Shown one piece after another: positions 21,175 through 42,611 of a stretch of DNA of 42,750 bases (position 1 is the first letter of the stretch; each line of letters begins with the position of its first letter). Made by a program: the position numbers and the translations under genes. The stretch lies in assembly GCA_030683155.1 (NCBI GenBank), contig JAUXMV010000030.1, forward strand, positions 1-42,750, written 5' to 3'. The stretch is from Bacteroidales bacterium (GTDB lineage Bacteria > Bacteroidota > Bacteroidia > Bacteroidales > F082). The notes below the pieces were generated by a model. It worked only from the letters and a program-made list of their open reading frames with translations, was not told where the DNA came from and did not search any database.

Positions 21175-22533
21175 TTAGAGCAAGAAACTCATCATAATAC
21201 CTGCAGCAACAGCAGAACCAATAACTCCTGCCACATTAGGCGCCATAGCATGCATCAACAAATGGTTTGTGCGATCACTCTTTAAACCCTCTAGCTGCAC
21301 AACACGCGCGCTGTCAGGTACTGCAGAAACCCCAGCTGCGCCAACCAATGGATTTATTTTGTTTTCTTTGCTTAAGAATAAATTCATGAATTTGGCAAAT
21401 AAAACACCTCCGGCCGTCGCAATCATAAATGATAAAGCTCCCAGAATGAAAATTAAGATTGAGTCGGGGGTAAGGAAGACATCTGCCTGTGTAGATGCGC
21501 CAACGGTGAGCCCGAGCAAAATTGTAACGATATCGATAAGAGAATTCCTTGCGGTATCAGCCAATCGTTTTGTAACTCCGCTTTCTTTCAGAATATTTCC
21601 GAAGAAAAGCATGCCTAGCAATGGAAGTGCACCCGGAGAGATAAATGTAGTTAAAATTAATCCCACAATAGGAAATAATATTTTTTCTAGTTTGCTCACA
21701 GAACGAGGTGGTTTCATTCGAATAAGACGCTCCCTTTTTGACGTTAACAAACGCATAATAGGAGGCTGAATTACCGGCACCAGCGCCATGTATGAATAGG
21801 CTGCGATGGCAATTGGTCCAATAAGGTTTTTGGTTTCATAGCCATGCACCATTCCGCCATTTGCAAGTTTGGAAGAAAGGAAAATAGCAGTTGGGCCGTC
21901 GGCGCCGCCAATAATGCCAATAGCACCTGCTTCGGGCATGTTAAATCCAACATAGAGCGCACCGAGGAATGTCAAAAATATACCAACCTGAGCAGCTGCG
22001 CCCAGAAGCATTAAGCGCGGATTGGAAATAAGCGAAGAAAAATCGGTCATTGCACCAATACCTAGAAATATCAGCGGAGGGTAGATGCCTTTTGTAACAC
22101 CATAATACAGATAGTTAAGTACACTGCCATCCTGATAAATACCAAGTTGAAGGTTAACGCCCCCATCTTGAAAAAAAGGAATATTGCCAATCACAACTCC
22201 CGTTCCAATGGGAATGAGTAGCAGTGGTTCATAATCATAGCGTATGGCCAAAAACATAAAAAACAAGCCAACAATGATCATCATAATATTACCTAAAGTT
22301 GCATTTCGAAATCCGGTAAAGGTTAAAAACTTTGTTAAACCTTCGAGGGATTTTTCGGCTGCAAATGCAAAAAATGGTACATCTGCATCCTGATTGCTTT
22401 TGGCAATATTTTGGGAGGAAATATTTTCGTTTCCAACTTTTTCGGCCATTCCAGGATTCGTGACGACGAGCAGATTAAGCAGGGTCAACAAAGCAAGGAT
22501 GCCAAATACGGTAAATGCCTTTTGTAAACCCAT
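21175..22533 (-). CDS. mmdB: Na+-translocating decarboxylase beta subunit (methylmalonyl-CoA type)
   Basis: A 452-residue membrane protein that decarboxylates carboxybiotin and exports Na+ across the cytoplasmic membrane. Family signatures include IPIGTGVVIGNIPF, YPPLIFLGIGAMTDFSSLISNPR, and IGGADGPTAIFLSSKLA with the Na+-linked Asp (D212). Others are ISPGALPLLGMLFFGN and the end PNVAGVIGSAVAAG. An extra N-terminal hydrophobic segment (about 5-25) precedes the usual start of the family. It is last in mce-mmdA-mmdD-mmdC-mmdB, 3 bases after mmdC. The oxaloacetate and glutaconyl-CoA enzymes have near-identical beta subunits; the methylmalonyl-CoA assignment rests on the epimerase gene in the operon. 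Confidence 0.92.
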   Translation of the reverse strand: MGLQKAFTVFGILALLTLLNLLVVTNPGMAEKVGNENISSQNIAKSNQDADVPFFAFAAEKSLEGLTKFLTFTGFRNATLGNIMMIIVGLFFMFLAIRYDYEPLLLIPIGTGVVIGNIPFFQDGGVNLQLGIYQDGSVLNYLYYGVTKGIYPPLIFLGIGAMTDFSSLISNPRLMLLGAAAQVGIFLTFLGALYVGFNMPEAGAIGIIGGADGPTAIFLSSKLANGGMVHGYETKNLIGPIAIAAYSYMALVPVIQPPIMRLLTSKRERLIRMKPPRSVSKLEKILFPIVGLILTTFISPGALPLLGMLFFGNILKESGVTKRLADTARNSLIDIVTILLGLTVGASTQADVFLTPDSILIFILGALSFMIATAGGVLFAKFMNLFLSKENKINPLVGAAGVSAVPDSARVVQLEGLKSDRTNHLLMHAMAPNVAGVIGSAVAAGIMMSFLL

Positions 22534-22536
22534 CTT

Positions 22537-22971
22537 TTATTCCATTTCGATTAACAAATCACCTTGCGAAACGCTATCTCCAACGTTTATTTTGATGCTT
22601 TTAACGATACCATCTTTTTCAGCAATCAGATTGTTTTCCATTTTCATGGCTTCATAGATAATAAGTTTATCACCACGCTTAACCTTATCGCCGGGCTTCA
22701 CAAAAATCTGCATAATATTACCTGGAAGTGGGGCTGTTATTTGTGAAAGCACTGATTTTTCAGCGGAAGTCATTTTTACTTCAGAAGCTGATATATTGCT
22801 GTTTGGCATGGCTGATCGAACGAGAATCGGTGTTTTCGATTCAATCCTTTTGCGCTCAATTTCTATGCAATACATCGTTCCGTTTACTTCTATTTCTGCT
22901 TGATTGCCTTCAAGCTTGAGGATATCAACTTCGTAATTGTTACCTCTTATATTAAATTTGAAATTTCTCAT
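22537..22971 (-). CDS. mmdC: Biotin carboxyl carrier subunit of the Na+-translocating decarboxylase
   Basis: A 144-residue biotin carrier (gamma subunit). The C-terminal biotinyl domain (about 75-144) carries the biotinylation site YEAMKMENN, with the acceptor Lys at about residue 110, and the usual APLPGNIMQIFVKPGDKVKRG before it. The N-terminal part (MRNFKFNIRGNNYEVDIL...) is a small beta domain, and the linker is rich in Ser and Lys rather than the Pro/Ala linker of many homologues. It carries CO2 from the carboxyltransferase (MmdA) to MmdB. Gaps to its neighbours are 3 and 12 bases. Confidence 0.92.
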   Translation of the reverse strand: MRNFKFNIRGNNYEVDILKLEGNQAEIEVNGTMYCIEIERKRIESKTPILVRSAMPNSNISASEVKMTSAEKSVLSQITAPLPGNIMQIFVKPGDKVKRGDKLIIYEAMKMENNLIAEKDGIVKSIKINVGDSVSQGDLLIEME

Positions 22972-22983
22972 TTTAACTATTAA

Positions 22984-23352
22984 TTATCGGTTAAGGCCTC
23001 TCAATCCGTATATTTTTGAACTCCATGGAGAATAAACCCGCGATACCTTTTTAATGGTGATAACGTTGCTTTCCTCATCATGCAATTCGGTTACCATATA
23101 TAAGGCCATGCTGATTGCTGCAGTAACTTCTCCGGGAATGGAAAAATCTTTGGTTGGGTCAGTATGACTTAATTTTCCTTGTCTGCGGAGCATTATTTTT
23201 GTTCTCAAGTTGATTAACTTCGAAAGATTATCGAAAAAATAATAGAGCAAAACCAAAGCAACAAACACAATCAGGTATCCTACCACAGAAACCACTATGC
23301 CTTCAATCAAAGTGGTCTCCGGAACAACCGTAAACTCTGTCAGTAGTATCAT
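22984..23352 (-). CDS. mmdD: OadG-like small membrane subunit of the decarboxylase
   Basis: A 122-residue protein with one membrane segment (GIVVSVVGYLIVFVALVLLYYFF, about residues 19-41) and a charged C-terminal cytoplasmic part. This matches the OadG/MmdD delta subunit that holds the carboxyltransferase to the membrane subunit. The second half contains IPGEVTAAISMALYMV, seen in Bacteroidota versions. The sequence is poorly conserved in the family, so the position between mmdA and mmdC, 10-12 bases from each, is the main evidence. Confidence 0.85.
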   Translation of the reverse strand: MILLTEFTVVPETTLIEGIVVSVVGYLIVFVALVLLYYFFDNLSKLINLRTKIMLRRQGKLSHTDPTKDFSIPGEVTAAISMALYMVTELHDEESNVITIKKVSRVYSPWSSKIYGLRGLNR

Positions 23353-23362
23353 ATTATTATTT

Positions 23363-24922
23363 TTATAATGGGATATTTGAATGCTTCTTCGGTGGATTAG
23401 AGTCTTTTTTGGTTGCTAATGCCTGTAATGCTCTGATGATACGGAAGCGGGTGTTTCGGGGCTCAATAACATCATCAATATAACCGTATCGGGCTGCCTC
23501 ATATGGATTTGCAAACTTTTCACGATACTCATCTTCTTTTAACTTGATGAAAGCAGCACGTTCAACAGGGTCTTTGATTTCTAAAATTGCACGTCCTTCA
23601 AGCACTTCGATAGCGCCAGCAGGTCCCATAACAGCAATTTCAGCTGATGGCCATGCGTAGTTGATATCACCACGCAATTGTTTTGATCCCATGACATCGT
23701 GTGCGCCACCGTATGATTTCCTTAATGTGATCGTGACTTTTGGAACTGTTGCCTCGCCGTATGCAAACAAAAGCTTGGCGCCATGAATAATGATGCCGCC
23801 ATATTCCTGTTTGCTGCCCGGTAAAAATCCCGGAACATCAACTAGCGTTACTACCGGAATGTTGAAGGCATCGCAAAAACGGACAAAACGCGCAGCTTTT
23901 CTCGAGGCGTCAATATCGAGCACTCCAGCAAGGAAGTTGGGCTGATTGGCTACGATACCAACAGGCATTCCATTGAACTTTGCATAACCGATGATGATAT
24001 TCTTGGCGTAATTTCGCTGAATTTCAAGAAATTCACCATAATCAACAATTGCATGAATGATATCTTTTACATCATATGGCTTGTTAGGATTGTCTGGAAT
24101 GATCTGGTTCAGTGAGTCTTCCAGCCTGTTTATAGGATCTGTACACTCAGAAAGAGGCGGTTCTTCAAGGTTATTCTGGGGAAGGTATGTCAAAAGTTTT
24201 CTGATGAGTAAAATACCTTCTTCTTCATTTTGAACAACAAAGTGACTTACACCAGATTTAGTTCCATGTACCCATGCTCCACCCAAATCTTCTGTAGAGA
24301 TATCTTCACCTGTTACTGTTTTTGTAACCTTTGGTCCGGTTACAAACATATAACTGGTGTTTTCGCTCATGAGCACAAAGTCGGTGAGTGCCGGCGAATA
24401 CACCGCACCGCCAGCGCAAGGACCAAAAATTGCAGATATCTGAGGTATAACTCCCGAGGCCATAATATTACGCTGAAAAATATCAGCATATCCTGCAAGA
24501 CTTCGAACACCTTCCTGAATTCTGGCGCCGCCACTGTCATTGATGCCAATAACTGGTGCGCCAACTTTCATGGCCTGATCCATTACTTTGCAAATCTTGT
24601 TAGCAAAAGTCTCGCTGAGCGAACCTCCGAAAACGGTGAAATCCTGAGAAAAAACATAGACCACTCTGCCGTCTATTGTGCCATGACCAGTTACAACGCC
24701 ATCGCCCAAATATTGCTGATTGCCCAATCCAAAATCTGTTGTTCGGTGGGTAACGAACATGTCAAATTCTTCAAAACTACCCTCATCGAGAAGCAAATCA
24801 ATGCGTTCCCGTGCTGTAAATTTCCCTTTGGCATGCTGCGACTCCATGCGTTTGTCACCTCCGCCTTTTTTTGCTTCAATGCGTTTGTCCAGTAACTCCT
24901 GAATTTTTGATTCGATTGACAT
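23363..24922 (-). CDS. mmdA: Methylmalonyl-CoA decarboxylase carboxyltransferase subunit
   Basis: A 519-residue acyl-CoA carboxyltransferase with two crotonase-like halves. N half: [36 protein letters not shown], and [13 protein letters not shown] forming the first oxyanion hole. C half: [37 protein letters not shown] and [19 protein letters not shown]. The family covers propionyl-CoA carboxylase beta and the methylmalonyl-CoA and glutaconyl-CoA decarboxylase alpha subunits. The operon with mmdDCB and mce favours methylmalonyl-CoA to propionyl-CoA plus carboxybiotin. A gap of 17 bases separates it from mce. Confidence 0.94.
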
Positions 24923-32094: not shown

Positions 32095-33477
32095 CTATTC
32101 CTGAATTTTGATGCAACGCACTGGTTGTCCAACTCCTTTATTAAAGCTTCCTTTAGTAAGAACGCTGTCGTCAAAGTTGAACCGACGGAAGAGTGCCAGA
32201 TCAGGATTGGTAGAATGGGCTGAGGATGTCCACCAGTATCCGCGCGAACCCATCCAGCTGGAATTGCCGCTCGAGCTTAAAATATAGCCAGCTGCTATAA
32301 GCCCAAACCCATAATTGTCTGTGCCGTAATGCTGGCTGTTTTCTCTCCAGCGGGGATGATCATTTGTTGCACAATCACCGCCTAACGGCGAATTTATCTG
32401 ACGGCATGATTTTACTGCCCCTGCAATATTTGTTTCGTCAAAGATATTTTCAGCGTCAATGATGTAGCTAATTAAAACATTCCATTGTGTAGTATCTGGC
32501 ACTTGCCAACCTGCCGGACAAATATTGCCTGCTTCAATTGCATACCAGTTGTACATTTTACCGTATGCCGCCACAACCTCTTCCGGGGATTCAAGACCTT
32601 CAGCAGAGGAGTGATTGTGATCGTAAATCGTGTGAGCTGGTAGTTTTGCATTGGTGCTGTTTGTCACCCATGCCGCACCGGAAAAAGGACCTGGAATCGC
32701 ACCTCCACTTGTGTAGGTGCTTGTTTTAAGGTTTTCTGCCATCCAAAGCTGATCTCCGATGACAACAACAGAATAATGATTGCCATCTGCATCGGTGCAT
32801 TCAACAAAATTAAAATCAACAATCTGACTTTGCGTTGGAACCATTGTCAAAATATGGGTGTAATTTCCTGAGATGCCTTTAAATAAGAGTCTTTCACCAT
32901 CATTATACTGCATCAAAACATGGTCTGAAGTGCTTTTCAACTGGCTATTTTTTGGTGTTGCAGTGGAGCTGCCTTCTTTTTCTATGCTGATGGCTTTTGC
33001 AGCGTCAGATGTTGAAATAATCCTTTGTGCAAAGGTGGCTTCAGGTGTTTTTATTTTTATCAGGTGAACTCCAGAACCTAAGCCGTTAACACTGAAAATG
33101 TGCATCCCATCTTGAAGTGTTTCTGTTTTGCCGGCCAGTTTTTTACCGGAAAAATCAAATAGATCAATATTTACCGTACCTGAATTGCTATAGAATTCTA
33201 TCCTGCTTGATTCGTTGGTTGGATTAGGATAAACAAGCATTTCGTTGAACTTGGTGTTTATTGTATTTAAGCCTAGAACACCATCCAGTTGCAATACATC
33301 ATTTCCTGCCAGCATTATACTGGTTCCCTGATCGATATTTTTGACTTCAATGGTCTCGATAGTATTGCTTTGTCCAGATCCTGTAAAACTAATTTGATAG
33401 TTTTGTGTGAAACTAAAAGGTATAATTGCGAGAAATAGCGCAATTAAAAAAGTTGAGCGTAAAAAGTTATTATTCAT
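32095..33477 (-). CDS. FISUMP-domain secreted protein with an internal T9SS-like module
   Basis: 460 residues. The signal peptide ends at FSFTQ (about residue 25). Residues 80-157 (FNEMLVYPNPTNESSRIEFYS... GVHLIKIKTPEATFAQRII) have the full pattern of a type A T9SS sorting domain, but in the N-terminal third rather than at the end. Residues 227-460 form the Fibrobacter succinogenes major paralogous (FISUMP) domain, with VVIGDQLWMAENLKT, YNWYAIEAGNICPAGWQVP, KSCRQINSPLGGDCAT, GYWWTSS and the final PVRCIK. The function of FISUMP domains is unknown; they occur in surface proteins. It follows a paralogue on the same strand. Confidence 0.88.
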   Translation of the reverse strand: MNNNFLRSTFLIALFLAIIPFSFTQNYQISFTGSGQSNTIETIEVKNIDQGTSIMLAGNDVLQLDGVLGLNTINTKFNEMLVYPNPTNESSRIEFYSNSGTVNIDLFDFSGKKLAGKTETLQDGMHIFSVNGLGSGVHLIKIKTPEATFAQRIISTSDAAKAISIEKEGSSTATPKNSQLKSTSDHVLMQYNDGERLLFKGISGNYTHILTMVPTQSQIVDFNFVECTDADGNHYSVVVIGDQLWMAENLKTSTYTSGGAIPGPFSGAAWVTNSTNAKLPAHTIYDHNHSSAEGLESPEEVVAAYGKMYNWYAIEAGNICPAGWQVPDTTQWNVLISYIIDAENIFDETNIAGAVKSCRQINSPLGGDCATNDHPRWRENSQHYGTDNYGFGLIAAGYILSSSGNSSWMGSRGYWWTSSAHSTNPDLALFRRFNFDDSVLTKGSFNKGVGQPVRCIKIQE

Positions 33478-33624: not shown

Positions 33625-35013
33625 TTATTTATTTTTAATACAACGGACAGAGAACCCGATTCTTTTACTTGTGGCAATTCGCTCTAATACACTCATGCTG
33701 AAATATGTTCGACGATAATTTGCGCTTTCAGGATTCGTTTCAAATTCAGTCGAAGTCCACCAGTATCCACGGCTTGTAAGCCAGCTGTAATTACCTGAGG
33801 TATTGTGTCTGAATCCAGCTGGCAACAAACCCAGATTATAAAGGTCTTCGCCAATGTTAAGCTCGTCTTCCCTCCAGAAAGGATGCTGATCTGTTGCACA
33901 TTCACCACCAAGTGGTGAGTTAATTTGTCTGCACGATTTTAACGCTCTGGCTAAATTGGAAGTGTCGATACTTGCTTGTTGTTCAATGATGAAAGCACTC
34001 ATTTGATTCCAGTCATCACTACTTGGAACGCGCCATCCACTTGGGCAAAGACTACGCACATCACCGACAGCAAACCAGTTATAAAGGAGTCCGTATATGG
34101 ATGCCATTTGCGCTTCAGAATCAATTCCGGCAGCGTTTGAATTGTTGAAATCAAAAACTGTAAATGCACCTGAATTGGTAGTAGTCCAGGTTTCATTGTC
34201 CAGATTTGTGGGGATAGGGTCACCACTATTATATGTTCTAACCCGCAGGTTTTCTGCCATCCATTCTTGATTGCCAATGATAACAGTCTGGTAAATATTT
34301 CCGTCAATATCTATTACGATTCCTTCCTCGAGCGTTTTAAATGAAATTTCATTTCCGTAACCTGTTCCAGCAGCATTAGTGGCATATGCTCTTATATAGT
34401 AGGTTGTATTAGATTCAAGATCAGCTATGTTACTTATGAAAGCGCCAATGCCATTTCCATCTTCAGTTTTACTGCCGGCAATAGTAGGATTCTGGCTTGT
34501 GCTCCAGCAAACACCCCGGCTTGTCACTTCTCCACCACCGTCTGAAGTAATGTTGCCGCCTGTTTTGGCAGTATGTCTGTCAATTTCAGTAACTGAAACT
34601 GTTGTCAGCACCGGCACTTCAATGCCTAAAAGAGTTGTAATTTCGATTTGATTACCATAGCCTGTACCGGCACTATTTGTGGCATAAGACCTGATATAGT
34701 ATATTTTATTTGCTTCCAGTCCTGAAATATTACTTGTAAAACTTCCAGCACCAGCACCATCCTCAGTTTTGGCGTCAGCAATAGTGGGATTAGGATTTGT
34801 ACTCCAGCATACACCTCGAGCAGTAACTGAGGCGCCGCCGTTATCTGTAACAGTTCCACCTGAAATTGCACCTGTTGCAGTTATTTGAGTTGCCTGGGTT
34901 GTTGTAACTGTTGGTAAAACAACCTTATCTTCTTTTTTGCAACTACCTATAATAAATAGCATAACTCCAAAAAGAGTCATAATGTAAATCAGGTTTTTCT
35001 TTCTTTGTTTCAT
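33625..35013 (-). CDS. FISUMP-domain lipoprotein with two fibronectin-like repeats
   Basis: A 462-residue lipoprotein with the lipobox Cys in LFIIGSCKKED. Two tandem beta repeats (about 33-130 and 132-230) share the pattern ARGVCWSTNPNPTIADAKT / SRGVCWSTSQNPTIAGSKT and YYIRSYATNSAGTGYGN / YYIRAYATNAAGTGYGN, typical of Bacteroidota fibronectin-III-like repeats. The C-terminal FISUMP domain (about 233-462) holds VIIGNQEWMAENLRV, YNWFAVGDVRSLCPSGWRVP, KSCRQINSPLGGECAT, GYWWTST and FSVRCIKNK. It is probably displayed on the outer membrane with the FISUMP domain outermost. It has its own promoter 140 bases upstream. Confidence 0.9.
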   Translation of the reverse strand: MKQRKKNLIYIMTLFGVMLFIIGSCKKEDKVVLPTVTTTQATQITATGAISGGTVTDNGGASVTARGVCWSTNPNPTIADAKTEDGAGAGSFTSNISGLEANKIYYIRSYATNSAGTGYGNQIEITTLLGIEVPVLTTVSVTEIDRHTAKTGGNITSDGGGEVTSRGVCWSTSQNPTIAGSKTEDGNGIGAFISNIADLESNTTYYIRAYATNAAGTGYGNEISFKTLEEGIVIDIDGNIYQTVIIGNQEWMAENLRVRTYNSGDPIPTNLDNETWTTTNSGAFTVFDFNNSNAAGIDSEAQMASIYGLLYNWFAVGDVRSLCPSGWRVPSSDDWNQMSAFIIEQQASIDTSNLARALKSCRQINSPLGGECATDQHPFWREDELNIGEDLYNLGLLPAGFRHNTSGNYSWLTSRGYWWTSTEFETNPESANYRRTYFSMSVLERIATSKRIGFSVRCIKNK

Positions 35014-39149: not shown

Positions 39150-40535
39150 CTACTTATGCACTTTTTTAATGAAATCCTCAACTTCCGGAACACCTCCCTG
39201 ATAAACGAGGTAACCGTTGTAAGGTTCTCGGGTGGTAATTTCATCGTTTATTGGCGTAAGCATCATGCGTTTTACTTCGTCAGGATCGTTGGTTTGGCCC
39301 AAAATCCAGCTTAGCTTCACCCAGGCAACTTCGGGCAGCATATTTCCTGCCGGAACAATCCCTTTTGCCATCATATCACGCCCAGTATCATATACAAACA
39401 TGTGCACATAACCCCAGATCGTTTGCAAAGTCATATACATGTGAACCCCTTTTGCATGCGCTCTTTCAATGGCCGGATATAATTCTTTGTTGACATGGCC
39501 CAAACCTGTACCAACAATAATGATTCCGCGGTATCCAGCTTCAACCAATGCATCAATGGTGTCGGGTTTCATTCCGGGATAATAGTAAAGCATCGTCACG
39601 TCATCACTGAAATATGGGAGGATTTTTACGTTTTTGTCGTTGCGCCTTTTGTTATAGGTTTTATGAATAGGTGTCACTTTCTGTCTGTTAACCATTGCCA
39701 GCGGTGTGTCGCCGATCGTGCGGAAAGTACTTCTGTAGCTTGAATGCATCTTTCGGACTCTTGTTCCTTTATGCAACAAACCATATTCATCGGATGTTGG
39801 TCCAAACATACAAACCATCACTTCTGCGATGTCTGATGTGCCGGCGGTTTTCATGGCATGCATCAGGTTGAGGGCAGCATCGGAGCTGGGGCGGTCGCTT
39901 GATCGTTGTGATCCTACAAGTACGACGGGAACGGGTAAATTCTGACACATAAAAGTGAGTGCAGCTCCGGTATGATGCAATGTGTCGGTTCCATGACCGA
40001 TAACAATGCCATCAATGCCATGTTCGATTTCTTTTCCAATGGCTTTGGCAAGTGCCATGTATTGTTTTGGCCCCATGTTTTCGCTGAAAACAGCAAATAA
40101 TTTTTCCGTTTCAAGGTTACAAATATCCGCAAGCTCTGGCACAGCACCATACAGTTCACCAGGCGAAAAGGCAGGAATAACAGCGCCTGTGCGATAGTCC
40201 AGCCGTGAAGCAATTGTTCCGCCTGTACCGAAAAGTTTAACTTTTGGCAATCCCGGTGTAACAGGAAATTGTTTTTCAGGGATTTTGTAATTGGCTTTTT
40301 TGTAGCCTGTCTCCTTCATATCGCGGATCGTTCCAACACTGATTCCCACGTTATACCCCGTAGGTATTTTGAGAACGATATGCTGTTCATCGTCATTTTC
40401 TGAACGAGGAAGGACAGTGCCTACAAATTTCCCTCTTGTGGTATCTATCTCTGCCTGACCCCAAACGCGTGTATTGAATTTCTTTAAAACTTCTAACGCA
40501 GCTCCTTTATAGCCTTGAAAAATATCTTCGCTCAT
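39150..40535 (-). CDS. gatD: Glu-tRNA(Gln) amidotransferase subunit D (archaeal-type)
   Basis: A 461-residue asparaginase-like glutaminase subunit. It releases ammonia from an amide donor for GatE, which converts Glu-tRNA(Gln) to Gln-tRNA(Gln). The N-terminal beta-barrel domain (about 1-90: GKFVGTVLPRSENDD) distinguishes GatD from plain L-asparaginases. The catalytic residues are all present: T104 in LFGTGGTIASR, T183 and D184 in VIGHGTDTLHHTG, and K262 in RVRKMHSSYRSTF. The end, GNMLPEVAWVKLSWILGQT, is also a GatD hallmark. It starts 2 bases after the gatE stop. GatD is classically found in Archaea, whereas bacteria use GatCAB; see findings. Confidence 0.93.
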   Translation of the reverse strand: MSEDIFQGYKGAALEVLKKFNTRVWGQAEIDTTRGKFVGTVLPRSENDDEQHIVLKIPTGYNVGISVGTIRDMKETGYKKANYKIPEKQFPVTPGLPKVKLFGTGGTIASRLDYRTGAVIPAFSPGELYGAVPELADICNLETEKLFAVFSENMGPKQYMALAKAIGKEIEHGIDGIVIGHGTDTLHHTGAALTFMCQNLPVPVVLVGSQRSSDRPSSDAALNLMHAMKTAGTSDIAEVMVCMFGPTSDEYGLLHKGTRVRKMHSSYRSTFRTIGDTPLAMVNRQKVTPIHKTYNKRRNDKNVKILPYFSDDVTMLYYYPGMKPDTIDALVEAGYRGIIIVGTGLGHVNKELYPAIERAHAKGVHMYMTLQTIWGYVHMFVYDTGRDMMAKGIVPAGNMLPEVAWVKLSWILGQTNDPDEVKRMMLTPINDEITTREPYNGYLVYQGGVPEVEDFIKKVHK

Positions 40536-40537
40536 TT

Positions 40538-42502
40538 TTAATCTGTTATCTGTTTTGCTAATTGGGTTAAATCCATATTGCCTGCTGCAATTTTTCTGAG
40601 CTGACCCATAATCCAGTTTTTACGATGCTTGCTTTCTGGTTTTTTTGGGTTGAAGACAAACTTGCCCTGAATATAAGGAAGCTTTCCTGTTATTTCTTCA
40701 GCCGAAAGACGTTTAAATTTCAGAATTGTAAGTGCCGACTCGAAATCAATGCGTGGATGCTCTACAACCAAAGGAAGCATTTGCCAGGCAAGACGTGCAT
40801 CCAATTGCTGTTCGCGAAGAAAGGCAAAAAGGTGAAAGATCTTTCGGGCTTTGAAACGGCTGTTTTTTGACTTACCGAGTAGATTTTTCATGCGATGCCC
40901 AATGAAAGTGCCAGCCACTTTTGGAGAATATCCCAGTTCGTTCACAATATCTTCAAGCAAGGGATAGAGGTTTTTCGAGAAGATGTACGTATAGGTATCG
41001 TCGGGAACACCCCAGGATTGAAGGCGTTTATAGCGATCGATGATATCTTCGGGAATTTCTTTGCGAAGTTCTTCTATAATATTGTCTTCCAGTGGTATAG
41101 GAGCTGAATCTGTATCAGGATACATGCGATCGGCACCCGGAAGAACCCTCTCAAAAATTGTTGTTCCATCTGTTAAACCTTTCCGTGTTTCATTTGGGAC
41201 GCCTTCAAAAGCCATTTTAAAGCGTTCTTCTATTGTTTCGAGCGCCGTAGGAATGTCTGCGGCAGGTCCCCAGATGAGAATTAGTGCATCGTCAGGGCCT
41301 GATCCTGCTGTTTTTGATAAGTACTTCCATTCGGCGGGCGTGATTTCATCTCCGGATGATTCAGAGTGCAGCATGTTTGGTTTCTCAAGACAAGCGATAA
41401 CTTTCAGCCGGTCGCTGATTTCATTGGCAAACATTTTTCCGGGTTGGGTAAAATGAGACAAAGCACCTTTCAGTCCCGGAAGTTTTACAAGAACTATTTC
41501 ATGTTTTCTGGAAATGGCTTGTGCCAGTGGTGCATAATTAAACTGATCAAAATCAGGCTTTAAGATATTATGTTCAATTTTCCATTGATCATAGTTTTTG
41601 ATTTTCTGCCGAAGGTCATCACGTAAAATCAGCAGCGACCATTGTCTGAAAGCTTCGATATGCGTAAGTTCAGGAATCCATTTTGTGTGCGCAACACCTT
41701 TTATTTCAACACGTGATCCTCCGCGACAACTAACGTTCACATCCTGACGTCCGCTGCCGATTCCAGTCCGCACTTTGCCTGTACTTCGGTTGAGGAAACG
41801 TATATAATCACATGCTTCCTTAACTTCATCAGGATTGAGGCACTCGGGATACGTCACAGTTTCTATCAACGGCATTCCAAGTCGGTCGGTTTTGTAGATA
41901 CGTGTATGCCCAATATCTGAAATTTCGCGACACGAATCTTCCTCTATGCTAAGCTGAATCAAACGTATTTTTTTATGCTTTAGCTCAATTTCACCCTCAA
42001 CACCAATGATGGCTGTTCGCTGAAAGCCGGTCGGTATGCTACCGTCGAGGTACTGCTTTCGGGTAATATGAACTTCACCCACAATATTGAGTTTTGACAA
42101 AAGTGAAATTTCGATGGCAATTTTCAATGCTTCGCGATTGACGGGAAACGGAGGAGTGTCATCGACTTCATAGGTGCAAGCCGTTTCGTTTTTTATTCGA
42201 TAAATGATTTCTTTTCTGGTTTTAAACTCCATCAAAGCCGTGCCATCATATTCTCCAAGCTCACTAAGCGTTGGCCGCATATGCCGGATAATTTCGGCAT
42301 CAAAAACATCACTTTTATTGTAAATGCCAGCAGGACAATGACAAAAAAGCTTTTCCTGTGTAAGCAATTGTTGATGCACTTCAAGTCCGGACATGAAGCC
42401 AATTCGGTCATAAGTTTCCTGATTGGCCTTCTTTCGGCTTACATAACCTGCTCTTCTTTTGGTTGCCTCGTAGTGGGCGTGGGAATCGAAATTAAAGTCC
42501 AT
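40538..42502 (-). CDS. gatE: Glu-tRNA(Gln) amidotransferase subunit E (archaeal-type)
   Basis: A 654-residue GatB/GatE-family kinase-transamidase. It phosphorylates Glu on Glu-tRNA(Gln) and amidates it with ammonia from GatD. The cradle domain begins IGFMSGLEVHQQLLTQEKLFCHCPA and includes DDTPPFPVNREAL, SIPTGFQRTAIIG, IEEDSCREI and YKTDRLGMPLIETVTYPE. GRQDVNVSCRGGSRVEIKGV is typical of GatE. A central insert (about 325-455: LVKLPGLKGALSHFTQPG, GSGPDDALILIWG) corresponds to the AspRS-like GAD insertion that separates GatE from GatB. The C-terminal helical/tail domain (about 500-654) recognises tRNA. The ATG at 42502 is preferred over 42544, since a near-consensus -7 (TACTTTTA) lies between them. 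All landmarks are intact. Confidence 0.93.
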   Translation of the reverse strand: MDFNFDSHAHYEATKRRAGYVSRKKANQETYDRIGFMSGLEVHQQLLTQEKLFCHCPAGIYNKSDVFDAEIIRHMRPTLSELGEYDGTALMEFKTRKEIIYRIKNETACTYEVDDTPPFPVNREALKIAIEISLLSKLNIVGEVHITRKQYLDGSIPTGFQRTAIIGVEGEIELKHKKIRLIQLSIEEDSCREISDIGHTRIYKTDRLGMPLIETVTYPECLNPDEVKEACDYIRFLNRSTGKVRTGIGSGRQDVNVSCRGGSRVEIKGVAHTKWIPELTHIEAFRQWSLLILRDDLRQKIKNYDQWKIEHNILKPDFDQFNYAPLAQAISRKHEIVLVKLPGLKGALSHFTQPGKMFANEISDRLKVIACLEKPNMLHSESSGDEITPAEWKYLSKTAGSGPDDALILIWGPAADIPTALETIEERFKMAFEGVPNETRKGLTDGTTIFERVLPGADRMYPDTDSAPIPLEDNIIEELRKEIPEDIIDRYKRLQSWGVPDDTYTYIFSKNLYPLLEDIVNELGYSPKVAGTFIGHRMKNLLGKSKNSRFKARKIFHLFAFLREQQLDARLAWQMLPLVVEHPRIDFESALTILKFKRLSAEEITGKLPYIQGKFVFNPKKPESKHRKNWIMGQLRKIAAGNMDLTQLAKQITD

Positions 42503-42611
42503 ATTGCATTGTGTAATTGCTGTAAAAGTAGGGAAAAAGAGCATTCATAAAAGTAATAATCATTCTAAATTAGCGTTCGTTTTTTCAGTCTTTAAGCTTC
42601 ATTCGAACAAA

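Follow-up and report, generated by a model that had tools for sequence, protein, structure and literature searches.

At the right end of the window analysed here, a stretch of 42,750 nucleotides that forms one entire contig (C96) in a genome of 4.74 Mb and 98.6% completeness, lie two genes that resemble gatE and gatD, and the question they raise is whether they truly encode GatDE, whether they belong to a bacterium, and what such an enzyme could do there. In their available portions, a 2022 review regards GatDE as now restricted to archaea (PMC9499178) and a 2021 review places it only in archaea without AsnRS and describes it for Gln only (PMC8007984), and the accessible parts of PMC8001834, PMC4206432 and PMC13047044 (the last as a reference entry) hold nothing on GatDE in bacteria. 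Among the papers listed by full-text searches of a literature mostly without subscription journals, none reports GatDE in Bacteroidota in its title or the opening of its abstract; sequence databases probably already carry GatDE annotation in this phylum.

Identity and host of the gatE-gatD pair

Both genes are intact and in the order that the earlier note had described, as seen from their open reading frames, shared strand and short spacer (Table 1). The gatD reading frame encodes 461 aa. For gatE, the longest open reading frame (40538-42544, minus strand) would give 668 aa and an internal ATG at 42502 gives 654 aa; the starts of relatives fall near the latter position, in agreement with the start chosen previously.

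Table 1. Features of the gatE-gatD locus in the window.
Feature	Position	Strand	Description
gatE	40538..42502	minus	Glu-tRNA(Gln) amidotransferase subunit E; kinase/transamidase subunit, GAD-like insert, helical and tail region
gatD	39150..40535	minus	glutaminase subunit; GatD_N and asparaginase fold; T104, T183, D184, K262
spacer, gatE stop to gatD start	40536..40537	minus	2 bases
stretch upstream of gatE, up to contig end	42503..42750	minus	248 bases

GatD exceeds both NCBIfam equivalog cut-offs (496 bits with a cut-off of 310, and 495.2 with 324), carries the Pfam domains GatD_N, Asparaginase and Asparaginase_C, and among solved structures scores 386 bits to 1zq1_A compared to 138 for the best asparaginase. 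The glutaminase residues T104, T183, D184 and K262, which we take to be catalytic, are found exactly where they had been claimed, within stretches that align to archaeal GatD. GatE passes its two NCBIfam models with 459.5 bits (cut-off 456) and 407.6 bits (cut-off 319.55), narrowly by 3.5 bits for NF003107 and clearly for the other, and reaches 118.9 with the best GatB model; its score to the solved structure 2d6f_C is 297 bits, that to the best GatB 71. When modelled with AlphaFold2 (mean pLDDT 82.8, several short stretches below 50), GatE retrieved archaeal GatE, 2d6f and 1zq1, as top matches in a fold search. The GAD-type insert previously assigned to this protein is supported indirectly by this model and fold search and by two profile results: the GatB_N match is spread over residues 38-477 though the profile has 277 positions, and Pfam GAD, without a match in the window GatE itself, is matched in 17 of 38 aligned GatE members.

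GatB of bacterial GatCAB belongs to the same transamidase superfamily (GatB_N), and two of the three GatD Pfam domains together with the GatB_N domain, taken alone, would be compatible with a misnamed pair of a plain L-asparaginase beside a GatB-like protein. However, the window GatE scores far lower as GatB, and the equivalog scores, the GatD_N domain and the far higher scores to archaeal GatD and GatE than to asparaginase and GatB make such a misnaming very improbable; an identity as plain asparaginase plus GatB is refuted by these family, domain and structure-match scores. By its sequence the pair is a true GatDE, as had been called, resembling the archaeal enzymes of Methanothermobacter (2d6f) and Pyrococcus abyssi (1zq1) in its two subunits, catalytic residues, GatD domain order and GatE core with insert.

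The contig itself is Bacteroidota, which bears out the origin proposed for it: its genes carry T9SS sorting tails, SusD and TonB-plug domains, and the GC3 of the pair (0.38 and 0.42) is similar, lying at or slightly above the range of 0.31-0.38 found for 11 further genes in the window. A binning or assembly artefact that left archaeal DNA within a bacterial bin would fit with the contig ending only 248 bases upstream of gatE, but its probability is negligible given these neighbour genes and the similar GC3, 80 named loci (the best 80 of at least 559 relatives) that are nearly all Bacteroidota by title, and the occurrence of GatE in two genomes of this order that consist of a single contig (G605, G702). 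On the same grounds an archaeal or chimeric contig is refuted. Elsewhere in the window, two adjoining FISUMP-domain proteins are encoded at 32095-33477 and 33625-35013, the first with a T9SS sorting tail (residues 82-154) that precedes the FISUMP domain instead of standing at the C-terminus, and subunits resembling a sodium-pumping methylmalonyl-CoA-type decarboxylase (alpha, beta) are encoded at 21175-24922.

Distribution and inheritance of GatDE in Bacteroidota

The order of the window's genome, called Bacteroidales here from the titles of relatives, was sampled with 393 genomes, of which 161 (about 40%) carry GatE at a limit of 1e-40 for the NF003107 profile, which was set after viewing the table and excludes G470 and G572 (about 1e-23) as GatB-like; the count is 163 at 1e-20 and 126 over the strict cut-off. 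Presence is often all-or-none by family. Counted by eye, GatE occurs in 5/5 genomes of f59, f61, f76 and f78 (one a fragment) and 0/5 of f63, f64, f75, f77, f81, f84, f85, f115, f117 and f119, with mixed families such as f57 and the window's own family f1 (3/5 each) or f80 and f105 (4/5 each). In the same class outside the order, none of the rows listed lies below 6e-21, the level of GatB, and a phylum sample of 395 genomes contains 30 over the TIGR00134 cut-off, made up of the window's own genome and 29 outside the class. In the order as in these 29, gatD usually adjoins gatE. Among named genome contigs at least 559 relatives were confirmed, of which the best 80 come by title nearly all from Bacteroidales or Bacteroidota MAGs and include the named strain Perlabentimonas gracilis M08_MB (L176). 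The GatDE of the window is not unique, and many relatives own the pair.

The two genes are inherited together. Within the named loci of these best 80 of at least 559 relatives, a gatD open reading frame lies near gatE on the same strand in 68, the next recurrent neighbour family is found in 13, and no conserved neighbour besides gatD hints at function; some loci have roughly 1 kb between gatE and gatD or are cut off by the contig end. GatE and GatD distances are correlated across 43 loci (Spearman 0.83, with pairs that are not independent). Both genes are under purifying selection, with dN of 0.06-0.25 in comparison to five relatives at saturated synonymous sites (0.76-0.82 differences per site).

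In two trees, a smaller one of 29 rows and a larger one of 62 out of 137 gathered rows (including 27 of the 29 loci outside the class, two having failed ORF picking), the window GatE falls within a well-supported clade of Bacteroidales-type GatE, in which it forms a pair (82% identity) with a "Bacteroidetes bacterium HGW-Bacteroidetes-1" protein. The trees that the earlier note had called for place it in a clade of its own type relative to three archaeal GatE, namely the aligned stretches of two PDB proteins and a Natrinema plasmid sequence; with this sampling, Archaea are a possible donor. This clade and the presence by family support the view that the pair is long settled and no recent arrival.

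Several relatives deserve mention in their own right. A strongly diverged bacterial GatE (L060, genome G357; 34% identity to the window) sits on a long branch of the larger tree, and its genome has GlnRS, with GatB not over the cut-off. Outside the class, L062 (G156) encodes a Bacteroidales-type GatDE (GatD 80% and GatE 61% identical) in a family, f36, that has a second GatE type wherever GatE otherwise occurs, and is likely a lateral transfer. The loci L136, L144, L162, L146, L174 and L178 encode GatE of the Bacteroidales type on contigs that bear the labels Aminicenantes, Archangium and Saprospiraceae, which reflects either mis-binning or transfer. On a Natrinema thermotolerans megaplasmid, L283:2501-3972 is a GatE-like stretch with an in-frame stop and without a listed gene.

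Synthetases and tRNAs beside GatDE

The available text of PMC9499178 describes contacts of archaeal GatDE to the D-loop and A1:U72 of tRNA(Gln) and suggests a co-evolution of GatDE and archaeal tRNA(Gln) that kept GlnRS out of Archaea. The host studied here differs in being a bacterium with GlnRS and a tRNA-Gln with U1-A72, and in a diverged helical/tail region of its GatE. Its genome encodes AsnRS, a single GluRS and a GlnRS of 582 aa, whose gene has a tRNA-Gln gene nearby on its contig; GatB was not found, the sole GatB_N match being GatE. This search for glnS, gatCAB and asnS, which had been proposed as a check, thus does not bear out that the lineage needs GatDE for its Gln-tRNA(Gln).

The same holds more widely. 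Of the 393 genomes of the order, 364 have GlnRS, and so do 145 of the 161 that carry GatE; a match is lacking in 16/161 GatE-positive and 13/232 GatE-negative genomes (Fisher p = 0.12), and for nine GlnRS-lacking genomes of the order this absence was inferred from gaps in the match list. The 29 GatE-positive genomes outside the class comprise 26 with GlnRS and 22 with GatB over the cut-off, and none is without both, so that GatDE is the sole route in none of these 29. Taken together with GlnRS in 145/161, this makes GatDE an addition to the direct route and not a demonstrated main one. Loss of AsnRS was considered as a reason for GatDE and discarded, as AsnRS occurs in 77 of 80 genomes including the window's own.

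The two tRNA-Gln genes of the genome (CTG and TTG) are of bacterial type, both with U1-A72 and A73, and the same identities are found in all 17 tRNA-Gln genes from GatE-positive and all 15 from GatE-negative genomes. In this set of 32 genes from 23 genomes (12 GatE-positive, 11 GatE-negative), which admits only genomes matching the window genome's own tRNA-Gln and to which 8 of 30 searched genomes contributed no match, no change at the first pair or discriminator accompanies GatDE. A matching tRNA(Gln), which the earlier note had named as a need, was not borne out in its archaeal form, the first-pair comparison giving U1-A72 and not A1-U72. Of its Gln-tRNA(Gln) interpretation, a true and settled GatDE in a Bacteroidota contig stands, but the need for it does not, with GlnRS and bacterial tRNA-Gln present; these two features are a misfit to the pathway as it is defined in Archaea. 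The genome's own tRNA-Glu (TTC; L026:1501-1575) has a wobble G1-U72 as first pair of its acceptor stem.

R358 of Thermus thermophilus GluRS is presumably the residue that rejects tRNA(Gln). We found the equivalent Arg in 38/38 GluRS of GatE-positive and 33/33 of GatE-negative genomes (71 of 80 genomes used; 7 without match, G400 and G402 left out), and likewise in 27/27 control proteins, among them those of 4/4 control genomes with GatB and without a GlnRS match that are expected to mischarge tRNA(Gln). Because of these controls, the residue does not separate discriminating and non-discriminating GluRS within the phylum, and it was dropped as evidence on GluRS type. A column-by-column scan of GluRS for GatE-linked residues (3627 tests, row L223 out of frame) gave p values down to 1e-6, best in the N-terminal half, and was set aside because it is confounded by kinship.

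Possible roles of a bacterial GatDE

As far as can be told from sequence, the bacterial GatDE should work like its archaeal counterpart: by homology, Gln or Asn would serve GatD as the source of free ammonia, and Glu on tRNA(Gln) would be phosphorylated and amidated by GatE. Intact genes, conserved catalytic residues, co-inheritance, purifying selection and long maintenance in many families support a functional pair. With roughly even confidence, we suggest a functional bacterial GatDE heterodimer that would most likely amidate stray Glu-tRNA(Gln) as a backup or quality control. A likeness exists in GatCAB beside GlnRS and AsnRS, reported in the accessible part of PMC4206432 for 68 of 547 genera surveyed. 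There, too, a tRNA-dependent amidotransferase is kept beside the direct enzymes, as for example in Bdellovibrio; GatCAB of this type may make Asn on tRNA(Asn), whereas the genome studied here has AsnRS. That some 40% of the genomes sampled from a single order combine GatDE with GlnRS and bacterial tRNA(Gln) breaks a domain boundary and makes the supposed incompatibility of GatDE and GlnRS directly testable, with Perlabentimonas gracilis as a named strain and possible host for such tests.

A full parallel route, in which a non-discriminating GluRS would feed GatDE and some of the Gln-tRNA(Gln), perhaps that of a single isoacceptor, would be made indirectly despite GlnRS, appears rather doubtful. 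It would draw on the 16 GatE-positive genomes of the order without a GlnRS match, which are unproved candidates for GatDE as sole route, and in particular on G468 (99% complete), which has GluRS and AsnRS. But GlnRS is kept in the large majority noted above and also in G570, G661 and G727 of G468's own family, the tRNA-Gln is identical at the examined positions with and without GatE, and a missing GlnRS may equally be an assembly gap, as G251 lacks glnS, gltX and asnS matches at once. Together with G468, G428 and G735 are GatE-positive and 96-99% complete without a GlnRS match, G735 being without a GluRS match as well, and all three are candidates either for GatDE dependence or for assembly gaps.

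Beyond the backup role for this pair, it is conceivable, though we lean somewhat against it, that the whole Bacteroidota GatDE branch, living beside GlnRS and bacterial tRNA(Gln), has for that reason taken a new job, either Glu-tRNA(Gln) quality control or action on another aminoacyl-tRNA via its diverged tail. The helical/tail region of archaeal GatE reaches the tRNA. In Bacteroidales-type GatE this region has a mean identity of 0.47, compared to 0.83 for the N-terminal catalytic part, 0.52 for the insert and 0.79 for the second catalytic part, so that the substrate may differ; in the second bacterial type its identity is 0.33, and the C-terminal motif differs between the two types. That the pair itself now serves a different aminoacyl-tRNA or a different amidation, with its chemistry kept and its tRNA changed, is unlikely: this divergence, the lack of a GatDE-specific tRNA-Gln feature and the presence of GlnRS and AsnRS in the genome would fit, but the surroundings of the 80 named loci (best 80 of at least 559) show no recurrent gene for an alternative partner, the catalytic parts are conserved, and among solved structures archaeal GatE match best.
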